Notes under the pieces: generated by a model
Database searches by the model: none
What the model saw: the letters and a program-made list of their open reading frames with translations, nothing else
What the model was told of the DNA's origin: nothing
Shown: in pieces, positions 1 to 39,892 of the stretch
Layout of the letters: every line of letters starts with the position of its first letter
Position numbering within the stretch: position 1 is the stretch's first letter
Translations under genes and position numbers: made by a program
Origin: an uncultured Desulfobulbaceae bacterium
Lineage (GTDB): Bacteria > Desulfobacterota > Desulfobulbia > Desulfobulbales > Desulfocapsaceae
Assembly (NCBI GenBank): GCA_903887485.1
Contig: CAISPV010000048.1
Span: 1-41,906, forward strand
Direction: 5' to 3'
DNA length: 41,906 nt

Positions 1-3000
1 TCGTTGGTGCTACACTCGGTGCTACACTATCAAAGGACCAAGTGTAATGCGTGCTTCCCGCGGTAGTCACACCTGTCACGGGATCCACATGGTAACATGC
101 TGATTTAGAACCATCAAGATTCACCTTGAAGTTCGTATCGATTGCATGCTGGGTACTGATTCTGGCAGTTGCAACATCGGTAGGTAATGTCGCTAAAGCA
201 ACATTATGACATGCAGTTGCACATGTTGCGGTTCCAGTGTCTGGACGAATTGTGAAGGTAAACTGCTGAGCAGCAGGCAGTTGGGGATCAGAGACAAGAC
301 TATAATTCGCATTCCTTCCACCAACAGGCGCAACACCATCTGAATGGCAAACAGAACAATCATACGACGCATGTTCCTTATGGACTGCTGGTCGGTAATT
401 ATCGAGTCCATTCAGATAGCTAACCCATGCTGTACGAGTTGTATAGTTAACTCCGTTAGTACCTTTAATGGTACCGTTATATGTGCCTGTAACAAAACTT
501 GCTTCCCACAGTCCTTCCGAACGATCCATTACCCGGATGGTATCAGAAGCACCGCTGGCAGATGTAATTGCAATACTACGTCCAGGCTGCCCCTTGGCCC
601 AAGTGGTGGGATGGTAGTCACTGAACTGATAATCCGCCTTGATCTTGCCAAGAGCATACAGAGTCCAAGTACCACTGGTACCACCTTCACTACAAGCCTG
701 GCCAATTTGCAATGTCGTGCCCATAGTCGGAGGCGCAGGTCGCGGATTAGGTCCGTAATAGGTACTACAAAGAGGCAGATTAACATCACGACCGGAATAG
801 TTGTCCATATTCACAGTAGTAAAAGGTACGACATAATTCCAACCAGGTTTTCCACCCTCAACTGCGCTCCAGTCAGTAGCACCTGTGTTGGTCCAACTAG
901 CTTGCAGGTCACGAGGTTTCTGGTCGTAGGGACCATTATAAAAGCCCTTATTCGCGCCATGACAATCTTTACAACCACCGGCACCCCAGGCATTAGCTGC
1001 AGGTGTAGTACCATGGTTTACCTTAAAGAAAACACCCATAAGGGCGAGTTTAAGCTTAGGCGTCCTACCTAAATAGTCAACACCGACAGTTGGCAGATAA
1101 TTCTGAAGGGCTGTTTTCTGAGCAGCAATTTCAGTGCCGGTAATTACACCGTCATGGGTCAACACGTTAAGGGCTGCGGCTTTCATGGCATTACGGACAT
1201 GTGATGCGTTAACCGCATCCATTCCACCATCCTGACCATCAGCATTGATATCAATATACGTACCCTTATTACCAGTACCGAATTCCTCGTCTTTATCAAC
1301 CCAGAACATGCTGAGCAGGGCATTTCTCGTGCTTATTTTGTTCCCCTGCCAGGCTACGGTCAGATTATTTTCCATGGTCCGCTCTACATAGAGATTCTCA
1401 TGGTCAGTTAAACGACCTTCAGCATCCGCTCCGGTGGAATCAACAAGGGCGCCACCTGTACCCCATTCGTACAAGGATTCAGTAGCAGCTGGGCCGTGGC
1501 CCAACTTCCTGGTATGACACGCTTCACAGGTAATGACATCAAGATGGTTGCCGTCGGCAACACCAGTCATTTTGCCCATACCACCAGTCTGAATCAATGT
1601 CGAAGTCAGACCCATGAAATCATGCTTGTTTGTCGGATCAGGTGCACCGCCAAAACCGTAGTAGGTCTTACCGGCAGCTTTTGTATGGCATCCTGCACAT
1701 GTCCTTACCGTATTGTCGGTGTTGTTCCACAGGGAACTGTAAGGAGCATCCCCCTTGGATGGATCATGACCGAGGGTGGTTGCAGCAGCAGTATTGGTGG
1801 CGTTACCGGTCCAGTCTGGATTGTCCCCAGTCCCGGCTAATGCGTTATTGGGATCCATTTCCTTTCCATCATCTCTGGTATGGCATCCTATACATCCGAT
1901 ACTTTTGTGAACCTCTGTTTGATAGGCCATATTTTCAGCCCAGGTATCACCGCGTTTCTTCCAGTCAACTTTGTGGAGATCCATGTGACAGGCAGAACAG
2001 TTGGCACTTTCAGGTTTAGCCTGGATGGCATTCAGAGCAAGTGGGCCAAGGGTAGCATTGCCAGCATTATTTGCCACCATAAGCGCATCATAGGTTACTT
2101 TTTTACCATAACCAGTTCCCGCACCAGCACCATTCAAGTTCAGACTTCCGTCAGCATTATCAGCAACACCAAGTCCGGCGCCGGCAACACGTGAGGCATC
2201 AAAATTACCCTTACGGATTGCTTCCGTCCTCTTATCCCAGGAGTAACCCGCCATATGGCACACCAGACAATCCATTTCCAGAACACCGGTATCAGCGTAA
2301 TTCTGCGGAAGTACTTCGCCTAAGACTCCATTACCATTATCATCATACTGATCGATAAAATAGTTATAGGTATTAACGCCAGTAGTTACGATTGCTGGAT
2401 TAGCACGCAGTTCTGGTCTGACTCCAGGAGCCAGCGTTGTACCCTGAGCTACCGGAACATATTCAAAAGCACCGCCACCAACATGACACTCGCCACAGTC
2501 ACGCATCTGACCGGCCATGGAATTGTCTACCTTCTTTTTAAAAGTAGTTGCATCTGTGAAACTATACAACGCACTGAAATTCACAGGTTTTTGAACCTGG
2601 GGTTTTACAAGGAGCTTATCTGCATCGCTGAGTGCGGTGTATTTGCCCTTCAGATTACCCTCGGCATAATTATTCCAGGTATCGACATAACACTCATCGG
2701 TTGTACTGGTAGTACAGGTACCATTTTTCACACCATCAGAATTTCTATCAATAAAATACTTCCCGTAATTAACATTGCCTGTACCAGGATCACCTACTGT
2801 TGTTGGATTATCAAACATACGCGCCAACTGGCGCGCGGAAGGAGGTCACCACTTTCCTGCATGGCCGGTTGACTGAACCCATGGCTTACTCTGGGCGTCG
2901 GTGGAGTTCCAATTTCCAAATTTCCAGGGATCAAAGCCCTTATGTTCATTTGCTCCCAGTTGAGCATGGAAAGAATGACGTTCAATTTTATTGTAATCGT

Positions 3001-3190
3001 GACAAGCGCCACAGGTTTTTTTGGTGCTGTAGGCAACATTACTGTTTCCGCCAGCAATCGTGACAGGATTACCTGCCGCGTCAAGCAACGGGATAGGCTG
3101 AGTATGCAGCGCAAAGGCTGAACTGCCTATCAATAAGGCCGCAGTAGTCACCAGTGATCCGACTATGCAGCTTTTATAACTTTTCTTCAT
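1..3190 (-). CDS. Large multiheme c-type cytochrome, probable selenoprotein (UGA = Sec at codon 115), 3' end outside the window
   Basis: Exported multiheme cytochrome, presumably a periplasmic or outer-surface electron carrier; its redox partner is unknown. Residues 1-27 form a Sec-type signal peptide (MKKS start, hydrophobic core, SSAFA cleavage site). The first haem site is C60-GA-C63-H64. The ATG at 3190 has a strong upstream AGGAGGG. A UGA lies at 2848-2846 (codon 115, context GKW-UGA-PPSARQ). I then read every triplet in that frame down to base 2 and found no other stop, giving 948 further codons. These carry CGECH, CLVCH, CSACH, CIGCH, CAGCH, CEACH, CKDCH and CSVCH, plus one CX3CH. The coding part after the UGA has no signal peptide or ribosome binding site of its own near the UGA, and a SECIS-like hairpin follows the UGA. 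I therefore annotate one selenoprotein. The alternative is a nonsense-mutated pseudogene. The exact family was not recognised. Confidence 0.85.
2819..2836 (-). promoter_or_regulatory. SECIS-like hairpin directing selenocysteine at the UGA 2848-2846
   Basis: Reading the minus strand, the ten bases after UGA are followed by CGCGCC-AGTT-GGCGCG, a perfect 6-bp GC stem (2835-2830 with 2825-2820), extendable by one G-U pair. The AGUU loop begins 17 nt after the UGA, with G as its second base. As I recall them, bacterial SECIS rules ask for a short stem, a small apical loop with G in the first two positions, and a loop about 16-37 nt from the UGA; this hairpin fits. No selA, selB, selC or selD gene lies in the window, so the decoding machinery cannot be confirmed here. 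Confidence 0.7.
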
Positions 3191-3642
3191 ATTGTCCCTC
3201 CTAGAGAACTATACGTTTTGCTTATCTCTGCAAACTGTTCAAGGCGATTGGGGGGAACCGCTGTTTAGTCCAGACTGCAAAAATCTTATGAACAATCACA
3301 GCAATTACAAATTGAGTGATCTTGCTCGAACGTATAGCTTGCAAACAATAGGCCAACAAGCCTAATAGGAAAAAATATTTGCAAAAAAATACTTTACCCA
3401 AAACAAAACCTTTTAAAACAGAATATTACAAGAATTGATTTCGACGATTTGATACAACAGGTATACACTCAAGGGATAAAGCATGTGAAGACATCGGCAG
3501 AAAAGATGGGGCAAAACCCCCAATCCATAGCGGAGATAGGGTGAATACACCAACATGCAGGCGAGCAAAAATAGGCCGAAAACACCAACGCCGGCAACTA
3601 GAATCAGCCATCAGAAACAACAGTGACTACCAAAAATTCTTT
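3191..3642. other. Non-coding gap upstream of the large cytochrome
   Basis: This 452-base AT-rich gap separates the histidine kinase stop from the cytochrome start. It holds the cytochrome ribosome binding site next to 3190, the possible sigma-54 promoter, and a small TAGGC/GCCTA inverted repeat at about 3349-3364. A 64-codon open frame at 3426-3620 has no ribosome binding site or recognisable sequence and is not called. Confidence 0.6.
3341..3358 (-). promoter_or_regulatory. Possible sigma-54 (-24/-12) promoter of the large cytochrome
   Basis: The minus strand reads TTGGCCTATTGTTTGC. It has the obligatory GG and GC spaced by exactly 10 nt and keeps TTGGC and TTGC, but it departs from consensus at two positions after TGGC. 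Transcription would start near 3329, leaving a leader of about 140 nt before the ATG at 3190. The match is weaker than that of the 8576-8591 promoter and is tentative. Confidence 0.35.
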
Positions 3643-5163
3643 TCATATGGGTATGATCTCCCCAGGCGCAACAGGGGGAAAACAGTCAATGACCACCTCA
3701 ACAGTGGTGCCTTTATCGGAAGCTGAATCAATGGTTAAAACGCCATTTATGGATGCGACCCTTTCGGCCATGCCCACAAGGCCCCATCCCGGCCGCGAAA
3801 GTTGGACACCGCTGGACTCAAAACCCTTACCCTTATCGCTGATACGCAAGACAACACGCTGTTGGGAGCTAAAATCAAGTTCAACAAGGGCCTTATCCGT
3901 TTCTGCATGGCGGATTACATTTGTCAAGGCTTCCTGCACAACACGAAAGATAATAGTCTCAACAAAGGGCTCCAGGCGCTTCACAGAACCAATCGTATTA
4001 AACGTTGCCTTTACTCCTGTGCCGCGCTGGGCTTCATCGGTCAGATAACGTAATGCCGCAACCAGACCGAGATCATCAAGTTGCGCTGGCCGCAGATCAT
4101 GTACCAGCCGATACAGATCCTTATTCATCTGTCGACAAAGTCCCTGCAGCCTGTCCACCACATCGGCAACCTCAGTATTCCCGGCAAGCATCTTCCCTAG
4201 AGTACAGAAATTAAGAGAGGCTGCAGTGAGAGTTTGCGCTGTTTCATCATGCAATTCCCTGGCAATTCGAGCACGTTCTTCTTCCTGGGCCTGGACCAAA
4301 TGACGCAGGAACTCTATGCGCAGCTTTTCCCTTTTGACCAACTCCTCTTTTACCTGATTCTGCGCTTCAAGGCGTGCCTTTTGCTCTTCCTCCAATTCCA
4401 ACTGCCTCTTTTGACCCTGGGCAACAAGGGCCGTCAACTCCCTGTTCTTTTGCTCAAGTTCCAGAGATTTCTGACTAAGACTTGTTTCCGCCTCAATACG
4501 TTTATTCAGGGATTTATTGGCCTTGCGACAACTTATAACAACAGAACTGAACAGAATCAGGACTATGGGGGAAAGAGCGAGATTAAATAACCGCAAAAGA
4601 GACGCGAGTCGTTCTCTATCGGCAGTAACATCATGATAAATCTCAAAACCGCCAATAAAGGTTTTATCCCGAATAATAGGAGCATAGGTTTCAACGATGT
4701 CACAGCACGAAATATCACCCTCAATATCCAGTGACCCTTTTTCTGTGAATTTCGTGTAGATATTGCGGCTGATGTGTTTCAACTCTTCAGGATCCTGGTG
4801 TATATTTTTCCCTACCTCACTCTCATCTGTTGAAAACAGGATTTCGCCGTCTGGAAGAAGAATCCTTGCCTTTAATAAATTAAAATCCCGACAGGTTCCC
4901 TTTAATCTTTTAATTATTTCTTCTGTTAAAATCGACGGAATCAGCTTCTGATTTTTATCCGGAATCAGTTTTGACTCCATGTGAATAGCAAGAGCAACGG
5001 CTTCCTCTTCTTTGAGGGTCGAGATATAATTAACCAGCGATGGTGACACAAAAAAGAATATATAGAGCGGCAGGCTTATAATTGCCAAAAGGGAGATAAA
5101 AACAATACCATGGAACATGGAGAAAGGGCGAAGGCAGCATTTGGCGAGTGTGCTTGTTATCAT
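3643..5163 (-). CDS. Membrane sensor histidine kinase, NarX/DesK type (HisKA_3)
   Basis: Autophosphorylating sensor of a two-component system, paired with the NarL-type regulator encoded just upstream. Numbered from the ATG at 5163, a membrane segment (about residues 16-38) leads into a periplasmic sensor of some 150 residues. A second membrane segment (about 190-212) is followed by a Gln/Glu-rich coiled coil (about 220-295). The phosphoacceptor is His305 in RIARELHDETAQ, the HisKA_3 signature. The ATPase domain shows the N box (EALTNVIRHAE), G1 (DKGKGF) and G2 (GWGLVGMAER). The frame extends upstream to 5277, but that stretch is made of an intergenic inverted repeat, so I prefer 5163. No clear ribosome binding site decides between 5163 and 5118. 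The signal sensed is unknown; the nearby cytochromes suggest a respiratory or redox cue. Confidence 0.88.
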   Translation of the reverse strand: MITSTLAKCCLRPFSMFHGIVFISLLAIISLPLYIFFFVSPSLVNYISTLKEEEAVALAIHMESKLIPDKNQKLIPSILTEEIIKRLKGTCRDFNLLKARILLPDGEILFSTDESEVGKNIHQDPEELKHISRNIYTKFTEKGSLDIEGDISCCDIVETYAPIIRDKTFIGGFEIYHDVTADRERLASLLRLFNLALSPIVLILFSSVVISCRKANKSLNKRIEAETSLSQKSLELEQKNRELTALVAQGQKRQLELEEEQKARLEAQNQVKEELVKREKLRIEFLRHLVQAQEEERARIARELHDETAQTLTAASLNFCTLGKMLAGNTEVADVVDRLQGLCRQMNKDLYRLVHDLRPAQLDDLGLVAALRYLTDEAQRGTGVKATFNTIGSVKRLEPFVETIIFRVVQEALTNVIRHAETDKALVELDFSSQQRVVLRISDKGKGFESSGVQLSRPGWGLVGMAERVASINGVLTIDSASDKGTTVEVVIDCFPPVAPGEIIPI

Positions 5164-5170
5164 AACAGAT

Positions 5171-5326
5171 CGGTTTGCAGTTTGAGGTGTGTGGATAACA
5201 ACAGAGTGTAGTATGGGGAATGGGGATAAAAAGGGTATTCGGTTTGCGGTATGAAGTTTTCGGTAAAAAATAAACAAGCCAAAAACCCCGCCCTTGCCGC
5301 AAACCGAATACCGTACACCTCAAACC
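5171..5326. repeat. Inverted-repeat cluster between response regulator and kinase genes
   Basis: A perfect 16-bp inverted repeat, GGTATTCGGTTTGCGG at 5234-5249 and its complement at 5297-5312, encloses 47 nt. A second imperfect pair (5180-5194 against about 5312-5326, 13 of 15 matching) nests outside it. On the minus transcript the long stem is followed by CTTTTTAT, so it could act as a terminator or attenuator between regulator and kinase. The CGGTTTG word also recurs as a direct repeat. It could instead be a member of a dispersed intergenic repeat family. Confidence 0.6.
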
Positions 5327-5332
5327 GACCTC

Positions 5333-6010
5333 TCACCCCATTTCAATCAATCCAGTTCGAAGAGCGAACTTAACAAGTTCAGTAATAGAGTGAAGGTTCA
5401 GCTTTTTCATAATCCGTTCACGATGCCTGGAAATAGTATTCGGACTCAGCTCCAAGCGTTTGGCAATGACTGGGGTTGTCAGACCATCAGCAATAAGTTC
5501 AAGCACTTCCCTTTCCCGCTCACTGAGAATAGCCAGCTCTCCGGGAGCAACTGCGGTTAAAGGGGTACTATCCTCCCGCTCTACAACCCGCTGGTAATCT
5601 TCAAGCAGCCACCGCGCAAGGGCCGGCTGCAGGTATACATGTCCTGCCGCCACTGAACGAATGGCTGAGATCAGTTCTTCACTGGCAGCCTGCTTGGTTA
5701 TATAGCCCTTTGCTCCTGCGGCAAGCATTTCGAAAAAATACTCTTTGTCTTCATGGGCTGTCAGAGCAAGAACAAGACAATCGGGATATTTCTTGCTGAT
5801 TATCCTGGTCGCCTCAAGACCATTCATCACAGGCATGGTCAAATCCATGAGCACAACATCAGGCCGAATATCGCGTAGGGCCTCAATTGCCTCAAGCCCG
5901 TTCGAGGCCTCTCCAATCACTTCCAGATCAGATTCTGTCCTTAAAAGCTCCCGAAGGCCTGTGCGGACAACATCATGATCATCCACCAGCATTACTCGCG
6001 TAGTTACCAT
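5333..6010 (-). CDS. Two-component response regulator, NarL/FixJ family
   Basis: Transcription regulator activated by phosphorylation, presumably by the adjacent kinase. Residues 1-120 are a receiver domain: acidic pair D10-D11, phosphoacceptor D56 in VVLMDLTMP, and the conserved K in AKGYITK. Residues about 155-220 are a LuxR-type helix-turn-helix (LSEREREVLELIADG and SPNTISRHRERI). The length of 225 residues is normal. Its ATG overlaps the stop of the upstream isomerase gene by one base (TGATG), implying translational coupling. NarL-type regulators act with sigma-70 RNA polymerase, so it is unlikely to be the direct activator of the sigma-54-like promoters nearby. Confidence 0.93.
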   Translation of the reverse strand: MVTTRVMLVDDHDVVRTGLRELLRTESDLEVIGEASNGLEAIEALRDIRPDVVLMDLTMPVMNGLEATRIISKKYPDCLVLALTAHEDKEYFFEMLAAGAKGYITKQAASEELISAIRSVAAGHVYLQPALARWLLEDYQRVVEREDSTPLTAVAPGELAILSEREREVLELIADGLTTPVIAKRLELSPNTISRHRERIMKKLNLHSITELVKFALRTGLIEMG

Positions 6011-7104
6011 CAGATCTTTATTTCAACCTTCGCATTCTTGCGGATATCTTCACTATACTGACTCTGAGCCTGCTCAAGCCACCTTTGAGAGAGGAACTGG
6101 CTAATTTTACCTTCCACCTCTGCAAAAGGGATCACACCAGCAGCCCTTCGTTCTGTTACTTTGATAATATTATAACCTAACTCTGTCTTCACTACTTTAC
6201 TGATCTCATTTGGCTGCAAAGCAAAAGCTGCCTCCTCAATGGTTTTTAGAATCTCTCCTTTTGCAAAAAAACCCAGATCTCCACCCTTGATATTATTTGC
6301 GCCTTGGGAGTACTTTTTGGCAAGTTCAGCGAAATCCTCTCCGGCGATCACCTTTTTCCTTACATCCTCAATGGTTGACAGGGCCTGTTTGACAGCGGCC
6401 TCATCTGCTTTCTGTTCTACTTTAATCAGAATAAGGCTGGCTTTAACTTGGTCGGGATGGTTAAATTTATCTTGATTTGCATCATAAAAGGCTTTGCTGT
6501 CCTTCTCGGTTACATGAATTTTCTCCTTCATTTCCTGGAGCAATTTGCCTTGAAGCTGTTTCAGTGTCATCTCTTTGGTGATCTGTTTTTTGACAATATC
6601 AAGAGTGATATTATTTTCCTTCATGTAGTCTGTGAATTCTTTTTCTGTTTTAAAGGAATTCCTGAAACCGGCCATTTGACCATTTACAGCGACATCGTCC
6701 ACAGTTATGCCCCGTTTCTTGGCATCCTGAAGCATCAGTTCAATGCTGATAAGTCTTTCTATCACTTCTTTTTCAACATTCACTGAGCTTGGGATCTCTC
6801 CCTTTTTTGCACCAATGGAGGCAAACTGCTTTTTTGCCACCTTAAGTGTATTATCAAAATCAACACGACTGATTTTAACACCATTGACCATGGCGGCAAC
6901 AGTATCTTGGGAGGCCCCGTTCTTACTTTCAGTACTTCTGGGTGTATTACCAGAATCAGAACGACTGATTCCAGAATCATTTGCCTTCGCAGCTACAGTC
7001 TCTGGAGATGTGTCATTTTTACTTTCAACATTTTTACAAACTGCAAAGAAAACAACAAGCACAAGAGAGAAAAAAATTCCGATTTTAAGGTTTGATTTAT
7101 ACAT
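6010..7104 (-). CDS. Exported parvulin-type peptidyl-prolyl cis-trans isomerase (SurA/PrsA-like)
   Basis: Periplasmic folding helper. Residues 1-22 are a hydrophobic export signal; C23 follows, but the residue before it is Val, so a lipoprotein is doubtful. Residues about 70-200 form a SurA-N-like helical region (MVNGVKISRVDFDNT onward). Residues about 212-315 are the PpiC rotamase domain (VKASLILIKV, GEDFAELAKKYSQG, GGDLGFF, ELGYNIIKV). Residues 27-58 are a degenerate copy of 59-90, an internal 96-bp duplication. The start at 7104 has only a weak ribosome binding site. It leads the regulator and kinase genes and lies behind the octaheme cytochrome, so a role in maturing exported cytochromes is plausible but inferred. 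Confidence 0.88.
   Translation of the reverse strand: MYKSNLKIGIFFSLVLVVFFAVCKNVESKNDTSPETVAAKANDSGISRSDSGNTPRSTESKNGASQDTVAAMVNGVKISRVDFDNTLKVAKKQFASIGAKKGEIPSSVNVEKEVIERLISIELMLQDAKKRGITVDDVAVNGQMAGFRNSFKTEKEFTDYMKENNITLDIVKKQITKEMTLKQLQGKLLQEMKEKIHVTEKDSKAFYDANQDKFNHPDQVKASLILIKVEQKADEAAVKQALSTIEDVRKKVIAGEDFAELAKKYSQGANNIKGGDLGFFAKGEILKTIEEAAFALQPNEISKVVKTELGYNIIKVTERRAAGVIPFAEVEGKISQFLSQRWLEQAQSQYSEDIRKNAKVEIKI
6835..7026 (-). repeat. 96-bp imperfect tandem duplication inside the isomerase gene
   Basis: Two adjacent 96-bp units (7026-6931 and 6930-6835) encode residues 27-58 and 59-90. Both begin ESKN, continue with a [PQ][ED]TVAA segment, and carry SGISRSDSGNT or VKISRVDFDNT. The second copy fits the start of the SurA-like fold. 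The first has drifted to a Ser/Asn-rich, probably disordered linker. Confidence 0.75.
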
Positions 7105-7258: not shown

Positions 7259-8521
7259 TCAGCGTTGAACCCTGCCATGCCTGCCCATATACAGATTCAT
7301 TCTGTATCGTTTGGCCTCTGCAAGAAACTTCGAATACTCCTTGAGGGTTTGCTTTCGTTTTTCCCCTGTAAGCGTTGAAAGTTTCTTCAGAAATACTGCA
7401 AGTTGCGGTTCAACACTCTTTTTCTGATACTCTTTCAGCTGGTTATCAGCGTCACTGAAAAAACGCTCCGTGAAACTTTCACCATGACACTGGTGACAGA
7501 CAGATTTCATGTTATTGCGTAAATTTTCTGAACGGCCAAGCAATGGCGCATTTGGAGAGGTGAGGTCATGGGGGAGCCTCCATGCCTGATCATGGCTGTT
7601 CACAAGACCTTTTCCGGCACCGTTCATATGGCAATAGGCACATGTGGGAGCGACCATATCCTTTCCTTTCAGAAACAGGCCGGGACGATCCGGGACTTCT
7701 CCTTTTGCAAGAGTTTCAAAAAGAACACTGTGCGGAGAATGCTGATATATATCGCCTTCAGGATAATTCTCACCATCGTGACAACGCAGACAGGTTCCCG
7801 GCTGACGAGCGGCCTGCAAAGAAAAACGATGCCCTAAATGACAACTACTACAGGTACCATGACTTCTGTCAGGATTAATACGACCGGCACCATTATTTGG
7901 CCAGGAGGCAGAATCCGGTCTTTTTTCTGCATCAACTCCGACCGTCACCCCATGACATCCTCCGCACTGGGCAAAACCATCATCTTTGAACTGGGCAACA
8001 ACAGGATATCGGGGATCATCCTCTTTCATATTCTTCAGGAATTCAAGTCCATGTGCATGCCCACTGCTGGTATAATCACGTATCTGATCCTTATGACACT
8101 TGGCACAATCGAAAGGAGTTACAATTGTTGAAATATAAAACCGCTCTGCATGTTTAACAGAATCCGGATTTCCTTGTGGACTGGCATGACAATCCACACA
8201 CCCTACACCCGCCCTTGCATGGGGTGATTTAACCCACTCGTCAAAAATTGCAGGAGTTTCATCCTCATGACAATTGATACAAAACCCATTGTCTCCAAAA
8301 CTTTTCATTGGATCCTTAAGCTTTAATCTTTGTTGAATAGCCTCTTGTTTTTCGTTGCGTTTTTCAAGTTTTTCACTATTAGCTAAAAGCTTATCCCCTA
8401 CAGTTTCTACAGAAGATTGAGAAGATACCGCCAGTGTTCCTTCTGCCTGCACCTCCGCAAGACTAAAAGACGTAGCCAAAAACATCACCCCCAGACAAAA
8501 GAAACGCACATATCCTCTCAT
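7259..8521 (-). CDS. Octaheme c-type cytochrome, hydroxylamine oxidoreductase (HAO)-like
   Basis: Exported cytochrome with eight CXXCH sites at about residues 81 (CINCH), 108 (CVDCH), 139 (CAKCH), 186 (CGGCH), 224 (CSSCH), 244 (CLRCH), 294 (CAYCH) and 342 (CHQCH), after a signal peptide ending near residue 26. The haem spacing, the CHMNG...HDQAWRLPHD stretch and the MKSVCHQCHGESF segment resemble the HAO/octaheme family. That family oxidises hydroxylamine or reduces nitrite and related nitrogen compounds. At 420 residues it is shorter than classical HAO (about 550-570), and no long C-terminal segment with the crosslinking Tyr is evident, so a reductive or electron-transfer role is likelier. 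I chose ATG 8521 over TTG 8533 because GGAG sits about 8 nt before the ATG and overlaps the TTG. The substrate is not determined. Confidence 0.88.
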   Translation of the reverse strand: MRGYVRFFCLGVMFLATSFSLAEVQAEGTLAVSSQSSVETVGDKLLANSEKLEKRNEKQEAIQQRLKLKDPMKSFGDNGFCINCHEDETPAIFDEWVKSPHARAGVGCVDCHASPQGNPDSVKHAERFYISTIVTPFDCAKCHKDQIRDYTSSGHAHGLEFLKNMKEDDPRYPVVAQFKDDGFAQCGGCHGVTVGVDAEKRPDSASWPNNGAGRINPDRSHGTCSSCHLGHRFSLQAARQPGTCLRCHDGENYPEGDIYQHSPHSVLFETLAKGEVPDRPGLFLKGKDMVAPTCAYCHMNGAGKGLVNSHDQAWRLPHDLTSPNAPLLGRSENLRNNMKSVCHQCHGESFTERFFSDADNQLKEYQKKSVEPQLAVFLKKLSTLTGEKRKQTLKEYSKFLAEAKRYRMNLYMGRHGRVQR

Positions 8522-8575
8522 TTTTTTCTCCAAGATAAATTTACAGTCACATCAAAAAATACCCAATAAATTCAT

Positions 8576-38617: not shown

Positions 38618-39892
38618 TCAGTGCACTGAACAGGAGATACACGGGTCATAAGCCCGCACCAGCATCTCCGCCAACAGCTCAATCTCTTTGTCGCTTTTGC
38701 CCTGCCCCACACAGAACACGGCAAGCGCCTCAATATCATGACGGATATTGGCATGATTCTGGCTGGTAGGGATCACACAATCAGCCTTGACAATCCTGCC
38801 CGCGGCGTCAAGATGCAGGCAGTGATAGAGGATTCCCCGGGGAACCTCCACTGCCGCCACTCCGATCCCTGCCCTGACCGCAACCACCTGCCGTGGATCC
38901 TGCCAGGGCTCGGCCAGCAGATCATCAATCAACTGCATTGACTCCAGCACGACCTGCACACATTCCACCAGTTGGGCCATCACATTCATAAAGGGATTAT
39001 GAGTCACCGGCACAAGCCCAACCTCCTCGGCAATAGCCCTGGCCTCCGGCAGCAGACCTGCGAAGTTATTATTGATCCGGGCCAGGGCGCCAACGGCCAG
39101 AGATTTTCGCGACAGGCGGCTCAGTTTTGAGGTAGACCACTCCGCCATATACTCATTGGTCATGGCCGCATATTCCTGCTCCTGTTTCACCACCCCGTCT
39201 GTGGAGATGAGATCGCCGCCAATAAAGGGATAATCCCCCTTACCCTGCAGGGATACGAACTCGGTCTCCCGCTGGAAATCAGGGATGGAAAAAGACCTGA
39301 ACAGCTCAACACTGACCCCAAGATCAACAAGAGATGCCTGCAGGCGCTGCCGGAACTGGCCCAGCCGATACCGGTCCGGCAACATGGTAAAACCACCGAC
39401 CACGGTGCGGGTAGGGTGCAGCCTGCGCCCCCCCACCTCGTCACAGATATCATTGGCCAGAAGCTTGAGGCGGAGGGCCTGCTGCACCACCGCTGGATGA
39501 CTCTGGGTCAGGGGCAGGACGCTGCCGACTCCCAGATAATCAGGGGCCGCCAGAAAATAGATATGAAGGATATGGCTCTGCAGAGTCTCCATGTGTTTGA
39601 GCAGCAACCGCAACCGACTGGTCTGCACAGTGGGCGTAATCCCGAAACCGTTTTCCACGGCCCGGATCGAGGCCAAGGTATGACCAATGGAGCAGATCCC
39701 GCAGATCCGCCCGCAGAGATAGGGCGCATTCTCAAAATGTTTCCCCACCAGGATGGCCTCAAAAAAACGCGGGGTCTCCACCACCTCCCAGCGGGCCTCC
39801 TGTACCTGCCCGTCCTGAATGACTATGCGAATGTTTCCATGCCCTTCCACCCTGGTCAGGTGTTTGATATCGATATCACAGGAGATCTTCAT
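38618..39892 (-). CDS. [NiFe] hydrogenase large subunit (group 3-like)
   Basis: Holds the NiFe active site. The N-terminal ligand motif is RICGICSIGHT (C64, C67, H71). The C-terminal motif is DPCISCSVH (C418, C421, H424). The protein stops at that His, so there is no C-terminal extension for a maturation protease to remove. All four ligand positions are Cys. It is 424 residues long. The ATG at 39892 follows GGAGGAACC and overlaps the small-subunit stop (ATGA). Together with the FAD subunit this fits a cytosolic group 3b-type enzyme linked to NAD(P); 3c (Mvh) is the alternative. Confidence 0.94.
   Translation of the reverse strand: MKISCDIDIKHLTRVEGHGNIRIVIQDGQVQEARWEVVETPRFFEAILVGKHFENAPYLCGRICGICSIGHTLASIRAVENGFGITPTVQTSRLRLLLKHMETLQSHILHIYFLAAPDYLGVGSVLPLTQSHPAVVQQALRLKLLANDICDEVGGRRLHPTRTVVGGFTMLPDRYRLGQFRQRLQASLVDLGVSVELFRSFSIPDFQRETEFVSLQGKGDYPFIGGDLISTDGVVKQEQEYAAMTNEYMAEWSTSKLSRLSRKSLAVGALARINNNFAGLLPEARAIAEEVGLVPVTHNPFMNVMAQLVECVQVVLESMQLIDDLLAEPWQDPRQVVAVRAGIGVAAVEVPRGILYHCLHLDAAGRIVKADCVIPTSQNHANIRHDIEALAVFCVGQGKSDKEIELLAEMLVRAYDPCISCSVH

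Follow-up and report, generated by a model that had tools for sequence, protein, structure and literature searches.

Gene, Reading Frame, and Heme Motifs

The window, i.e., the whole stretch of DNA analyzed here, is the 41,906-base contig CAISPV010000048.1 of an uncultured Desulfobulbaceae bacterium (assembly GCA_903887485.1). At its left edge lies a gene for a large multiheme c-type cytochrome (positions 2–3190, on the minus strand as are all window features described below) containing an in-frame UGA codon, which we predict to be decoded as selenocysteine (Sec). An earlier note on this DNA had described a frame from ATG 3190 that is open to the window edge except for one UGA at codon 115. 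Recomputation gave the same picture: 1063 codons down to window base 1, with the UGA (2846–2848; context GKW-U-PPSARQ) as the only stop. The sequence AGGAGG, a hexamer resembling a ribosome-binding site, is located 5′ of the ATG (3197–3202). Since window base 1 is the contig end, the gene is truncated at its 3′ end; the closest relative (locus L019) is complete and has 1198 aa. The two remaining frames of this stretch, each 1062 codons long, contained 43 and 111 stops, so the long open frame is not a product of chance, a conclusion that also follows from the recurrence of UGA at the exact column in relatives. In a program-made list of open reading frames, the cytochrome appeared as a 114-aa piece and a 942-aa piece started with TTG. 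The expectation that gene finders would report a 114-residue fragment was therefore borne out, but not the expectation that they would miss the remainder; an annotator might take the gene for two, or for a broken one, without losing the rest.

For comparison, relatives were collected with regular expressions, which gave a set of 72 rows; four rows with fewer than seven heme motifs after the Sec site were omitted to give the alignment A2 (68 rows). Dropped rows were loci from genomes already seen and chance matches of the expressions. This set missed loci L041, L049, and L051, which hold second paralogs and were recovered by profile-based reading of the site.

The window protein contains nine CXXCH motifs, one before the UGA and eight after it, which agrees with the arrangement given in the earlier note, and one CX3CH motif at residue 990. 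The heme 1 motif, CGACH at residue 60 (2999–3013), was found in 68/68 aligned rows. The heme 2 motif, CGECH at residue 232 (2483–2497), matched the catalytic heme 2 of octaheme tetrathionate reductase (OTR) in a forced global alignment. Motifs 3–7 start at residues 308, 398, 433, 498, and 555, and the heme 8 motif, CKDCH at residue 740 (959–973), closes the conserved octaheme core. Two extra C-terminal motifs, CSVCH at residue 945 and CATACH at residue 990 (206–358), were also present in L019, L033, L034, L035, and L037. The start of the protein, judged by eye, resembled a signal peptide, and the nearest relative carried a PKD-like C-terminal part.

Evidence for Selenocysteine at Codon 115

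The host genome (3.19 Mb, 124 contigs, 97.7% complete) was searched for the decoding genes selA, selB, and selC, as the earlier note had suggested. All three components were found: SelA (540.9 bits), SelB (389.3 bits, above the cut-off), and tRNA-Sec (68.3 bits vs. a gathering score of 47). UGA was the stop codon of 13 of the 23 other window genes checked and is therefore not reassigned.

The site was then read in the best 80 of 132 loci obtained from a scan of named genomes. Reading was done with the family profile on loci translated with every stop as X, which favored no stop over another. At the best place per locus, the codon was UGA in 47 loci, Cys in 20 (a share perhaps inflated, as one of the two search patterns held Cys at the site), and another sense codon in 13; neither UAA nor UAG occurred. 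The 80 loci are not independent, some being from one genome or near-copies. When all sites in these loci were counted, UGA occupied 59 of 96. Cys or UGA, which the earlier note had proposed to look for in homologs, thus occurred at this column in 67/80 loci. The nearest ortholog was 75% identical and had UGA at the same codon, in one family genome two paralogs had UGA whereas a third had TGT (GKW-C-PPSARQ), and two more distant family members had UGA in GKH-U-PPSFRQ. Two paralogs in the host genome itself differed in the same way, UGA on contig C7 (L143) vs. TGC on contig C107 (L144), and were 87.5% identical over 774 aligned residues. Both contigs are short (4999 and 3205 bases), so a mixed assembly is conceivable. 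The two genes offer a ready natural Sec/Cys pair.

Among genomes with Sec versions, 27 of 30 had SelA, against 9 of 20 among those with other versions (Fisher p 0.0009); this comparison covered 50 of 78 loci, chosen by hand, and counted as lacking SelA three genomes with matches weaker than 1e-9, a threshold we chose. In a quick tree of the 68 rows with the site columns omitted, the three site states required eight changes, and the clade of the window gene comprised 21 rows, 20 with Sec and one with Cys. The dN/dS ratio between the window gene and its ortholog was 0.49 ahead of the UGA, 0.38 between the UGA and residue 760, and 0.51 beyond that residue; in the first 100 codons after the UGA it was 0.69.

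Taken with the hairpin described below, the Sec/Cys column and the decoding machinery strongly support the prediction that UGA 115 is decoded as selenocysteine, as the earlier note had proposed. The same note had called Sec rare in c-type cytochromes. It recurs widely in this family, and Sec in multiheme cytochromes has precedent in ExtKL and in one TIGR04315 protein.

Hairpin Downstream of the UGA

Folding of the sequence directly 3′ of the UGA revealed a hairpin of 7 bp with an AGUU loop (2819–2836), a candidate bacterial selenocysteine insertion sequence. Occurrence of such a hairpin together with UGA in other genomes, which the earlier note had also proposed to look for, was observed in 28 Sec genes with equal spacing between UGA and hairpin (alignment A3). 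The A3 stem was 85.2% paired, above all 500 of 500 shuffles and all slid controls (≤63.8%), and the hairpin beat all 500 shuffles on three of five measures. Other measures were unfavorable. The window hairpin taken singly was modest (−13.6 kcal/mol for 45 nt, z −2.34, with 6 of 200 shuffles as good). Changes on both sides of the stem were seen for three pairs, a value equaled or exceeded in 216/500 shuffles, and the number of further pair types in 421/500. The control slid by +2 had higher covariation than the hairpin (0.302 vs. 0.184) at lower pairing (58.7% vs. 85.2%), and the RNAalifold covariation term was almost nil (−0.03). Covariation alone is thus weak.

The stem also encodes the conserved residues RQLA, and rows without Sec can fold too; because of this double role, codon choice is a better test than folding. 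In A3, Leu was encoded by TTG in 24/24 cases (2.5 expected from each gene's own usage) and Ala by GCG in 26/28 (4.4 expected). When other spacings were included, TTG followed Gln in 37/38 Sec rows (4.6 expected) and in 3/13 rows without Sec (1.5 expected). Such fixation far beyond codon usage indicates that not only the protein but also the RNA is under selection. An Rfam scan of the window gave no match at gathering scores; relaxing the threshold to E 10 around the UGA yielded two chance-level matches.

A second paralog type, with UGA in GKW-U-[STV]PSLRQ, was observed in L041, L042, L045, L046, L047, L049, L051, L053, L054, and L092; those that were folded had the hairpin-forming sequence CAGGTGGCG after the UGA. 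In the assembly of L073 (Desulfothermus okinawensis), a frameshift interrupts the gene just ahead of the UGA.

Octaheme Core and Relationship to OTR

Eight heme motifs were present in 68/68 core sequences of A2, a count that is partly a matter of choice, as rows had been selected for seven motifs after the site. Additional conserved histidines were found at residues 75, 428, and 726 (68/68 rows each), 549 (66 rows), and 475 (57 rows). Lys412 (1955–1957) was Lys in 66/68 rows and Arg in two. In the structure search with VIA-align, the AlphaFold model of a compact relative, L096 (pLDDT 90.5, pTM 0.88), matched OTR of Shewanella oneidensis (PDB 1SP3) with Z 12.5 and rmsd 4.3 over 341/436 aligned residues (212 chains), which stands clear of the values of 7 to 8 usual for unmatched models with this tool. 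The model of the window core matched the same structure (rmsd 4.8, 327 aligned, 146 chains), and 1SP3 was the sole multiheme structure reported for both models. Foldseek placed 1SP3 first for the window model (E 3.7e-4). Comparison of profiles by hhalign with 29 OTR-family proteins gave 98.8% for A2 (135 columns) and 99.4% for alignment A5 (128 columns) and put K412 of WKKRGD on Lys153 of VKHGD in OTR (numbered by count in the 1SP3 sequence). The forced global alignment with OTR kept the eight hemes in the same order. By these models, the eight-heme core is predicted to fold like OTR, and Lys412 appears from the alignment to be the counterpart of its heme-ligating lysine.

Several results weigh against this reading. 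The model of the window core is of middling quality (pLDDT 70.7, pTM 0.79), its Z of 8.6 is barely above the level usual for unmatched models, and both models carry no hemes. No multiheme protein, OTR included, was among the Foldseek matches listed for the L096 model. The hhalign matches to OTR cover hemes 4 to 7 only. In the forced global alignment, Sec115 did not fall on OTR Cys64, and the stretch consisted mostly of gaps; the NNFC motif of OTR is absent from the window protein.

By NCBIfam cut-offs, the protein belongs to neither TIGR04315 nor TIGR04314. With phmmer, the window protein gave nothing among PDB sequences at E up to 1. With the A2 profile, 26 distinct PDB sequences matched (E up to 0.1, best 3.8e-6), most of them nitrite reductases and reaction-centre cytochromes that matched over hemes 4–7. 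The OTR model TIGR04315 (cut-off 375 bits) did not list the window protein at E up to 1, and the scanned relatives reached at most 50.1 bits. The best NCBIfam match of the window protein was TIGR04314 (29.9 bits vs. a cut-off of 250), no NCBIfam family cut-off was reached, and Pfam matches were limited to generic multiheme models.

In passages of PMC11024163, heme 2 of OTR is described as the catalytic heme with a conserved Lys ligand. The predicted fold and, in the forced alignment, the heme order are shared between OTR and the window family, and in both a Cys or Sec lies between heme 1 and heme 2. The surroundings of this residue differ, NNF-C (Cys64) in OTR vs. GKW-U-PPSxRQ in the window family, and the clade of the window gene has large insertions and the extra C-terminal hemes. 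We take Lys153 to be the conserved ligand of heme 2 in OTR and Cys64 to lie in its pocket. Some members of other clades carry a membrane domain resembling formate dehydrogenase gamma; L057, L058, and L059, three of the other members scanned, differ from OTR in having such a cytochrome b tail.

The model behind the best NCBIfam match, TIGR04314 (methano7heme), represents MmcA, which passages of PMC11024163 describe as an OTR relative lacking the second heme motif and as an electron conduit tied to extracellular electron transfer. MmcA lacks this motif together with its Lys, whereas the window protein keeps both; MmcA is archaeal and adjoins Rnf genes, whereas the window cytochrome is bacterial. 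ExtKL (NF040886) is a periplasmic pentaheme cytochrome of Geobacter with a predicted Sec, according to portions of PMC6148476 and PMC5877670. It is similar to the window protein in being a multiheme c-type cytochrome with a predicted Sec but differs in heme number and described location, and its model gave no match to the window protein at E up to 1. In reviews, one Sec-containing TIGR04315 protein is tabled as GenBank-annotated (2026; PMC13188914), and a “cytochrome c family protein” is included among selenoproteins (2022; PMC9312934), a label that PMC13188914 uses for ExtKL. The words “cytochrome” and “heme” do not occur in the main text of the deep-Sep paper, and no description of the window cytochrome family was found among the open-access papers listed by the searches. 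We therefore regard the window family as a clade of OTR-like octaheme cytochromes, broad and without a name, that has Sec or Cys at the site.

Selenocysteine in OTR and Proposed Position of Sec115

The codon of OTR Cys64 was read in the 30 best-scoring OTR loci from 395 genomes of the host phylum, of which 29 were readable (L127, read in a wrong frame, was dropped). It was UGA in 13/29 and Cys in 16/29. Selenium is thus a recurrent feature of the heme 1–heme 2 interval in two related families. The proteins with UGA were L114, L118, L119, L124, L125, L128, L130, L132, and L135, and further L137, L138, L139, and L141. The host genome also encodes an OTR-like protein (G000:C4:15617-16867) that reached 244.1 of the 375 bits of TIGR04315 and had no internal stop.

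Sec115 lies in the interval between heme 1 and heme 2 that also holds Cys64 in OTR. Its place in the sequence order and the predicted fold point to the heme 2 region of an OTR-like enzyme, and on the same basis we infer that it is equivalent to Cys64. A role as a heme ligand or as a redox-active residue is plausible.

Genomic Context

Upstream of the cytochrome gene are genes of a histidine kinase (3643–5277; Pfam HisKA_3/HATPase_c), a LuxR-type response regulator (5333–6010; Response_reg/GerE), a SurA-like peptidyl-prolyl isomerase (6010–7104; assigned by Pfam), and a 424-aa cytochrome with eight CXXCH motifs (7259–8533). These four genes are shared with the locus of the ortholog. Over the 19 loci compared, the histidine kinase cluster occurred in 11 loci, and the response regulator and isomerase clusters comprised 11 and 6 proteins, respectively. 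The eight-heme cytochrome was also found beside the family gene in L032 and L037; it shows a weak likeness to the hydrazine dehydrogenase model (68 bits vs. a cut-off of 900).

In the Geobacteraceae loci L045, L047, L054, and L056, a five-heme cytochrome, a protein of ~680 aa, an NHL-repeat protein, and a 10- or 11-heme cytochrome precede the Sec cytochrome (names were taken from L045, whose 681-aa protein matches no family). This arrangement would resemble an outer-membrane electron conduit. That the Sec cytochrome stands with cytochromes, NHL proteins, and sensor kinases suggests that it is a reductase of the cell surface, serving extracellular respiration or that of sulfur or metalloids. 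Near members of one large clade, arsenic genes were detected, each cluster being typed from one member: ArsR in 11 loci, ArsP in 10, ACR3 in 5, ArsF in 4, and ArsG in 3. Sec/Cys cytochromes near ars genes and an RND pump were seen in L083, L089, L104, and others of this clade. In Malonomonas rubra (L043, 1–17777), three tandem Sec copies are followed by a gene for a 23-CXXCH cytochrome and this in turn by a fourth copy with Asp at the site.

Proposed Function and Alternative Explanations

We consider it likely that the gene product is an exported selenoprotein related to OTR with Sec115 at heme 2, as an active-site residue of a predicted reductase. The Sec/Cys column, decoding machinery, hairpin, core, fold, and lysine match were computed, whereas export, the position of Sec at a heme, and catalysis we infer. 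The protein would be an octaheme cytochrome enlarged by long insertions and two more hemes, in which SelB and tRNA-Sec, aided by the hairpin, would decode UGA 115 as Sec. Sec115 would then be placed close to Lys412 in the distal heme 2 pocket, a position like that of Cys64 in OTR. Electrons would enter via the heme chain and be carried by the other hemes to heme 2 with Lys412, the presumed reaction site. Sec115, at or near the open side of this heme, could be redox-active, nucleophilic, or a weak heme ligand, and could cycle between selenol and selenolate or form a selenyl intermediate with an acceptor that contains sulfur or a metalloid. This mechanism is favored by the OTR fold, the lysine, the recurrent Sec in OTR, and the arsenic neighborhoods of relatives, and an active-site residue of an exported reductase is the most likely role of Sec115. 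Besides the limits of the hairpin and OTR comparisons given above, two findings weigh against this proposal. The gene is patchy in its family, with matches in 5/93 family genomes (own included) and in 3/17 genomes of the genus, and 13 of the 80 loci have neither Sec nor Cys at the site (Tyr 4, Ser 3, Gln 2, Phe 2, Trp 1, Thr 1).

The strongest competitor, which we regard as having perhaps one chance in a few, is that Sec is real but not catalytic and protects the protein, binds a metal, or tunes a neighboring heme in a pure electron-transfer cytochrome comparable to MmcA. That OTR relative is described in passages of PMC11024163 as an electron conduit without the second heme motif, the neighborhoods of the window family are rich in cytochromes, and 13 of 80 members are without Sec or Cys. 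Against it, heme 2, missing in MmcA, was present in all aligned rows (although these were picked for seven motifs), and the lysine was retained in 66 of the 68 rows. Sec is generally costly and usually catalytic.

An arsenic- or organoarsenical-active enzyme, in which Sec or Cys would attack the metalloid, is improbable as the function of the window gene. Relatives with GG[RNT][WY]-U/C are indeed located near an ArsR-type regulator, ArsP permease, ACR3, ArsF, ArsG, and an RND pump. These neighbors belong to another clade, however, whose substrate may differ, and a Pfam scan of 16 other window genes showed no ars gene; neighbors of the closest relatives were only partly named in this comparison.

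The remaining two alternatives concern the codon itself, and we give either of them next to no credence. That the gene is decaying and owes its UGA to a nonsense mutation, or that the assembly is in error, might be suspected from a single stop in a long frame at the end of a contig in an assembly of 124 contigs, but this is refuted by conservation: UGA stands at the same column in 47/80 loci with UAA or UAG in none, paralogs have Cys there, and both sides of the UGA are under purifying selection. Reassignment of UGA to another amino acid, e.g., Trp, would leave the frame open, and L084 has Trp (TGG) at the site, but it is ruled out by the UGA stops of 13 of the 23 other window genes checked, by Cys as the commonest sense residue of the column (20/33, with search patterns that favored Cys), and by the presence of tRNA-Sec, SelA, and SelB.

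Returning to Sec115 as an active-site residue, we tentatively extend it, at somewhat less than even chances, to a widespread, hitherto undescribed clade of Sec-dependent octaheme enzymes. In these, Sec would lie at a catalytic heme 2 ligated by Lys and might serve the iron as a distal ligand that can be switched, and the clade of the window gene would act at the cell surface on extracellular or metalloid acceptors. The family adds numerous heme proteins whose active site may bring selenium and iron together, a chemistry of which few examples are known. Standard reading of open frames cuts these genes at the UGA; it is therefore probable that Sec-containing cytochromes are mis-annotated in many cases. 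With Sec, Cys, Tyr, and Ser all found at one position, the family provides a natural experiment on the contribution of selenium at a heme, and members in cultured bacteria (Malonomonas rubra, several Geomonas species, and Desulfoprunum benzoelyticum) make direct testing possible.

Elsewhere in the window, the frame of a NiFe hydrogenase large subunit (38618–39892) ends in DPCISCSVH directly at a UGA, which is probably its natural end without the usual tail.

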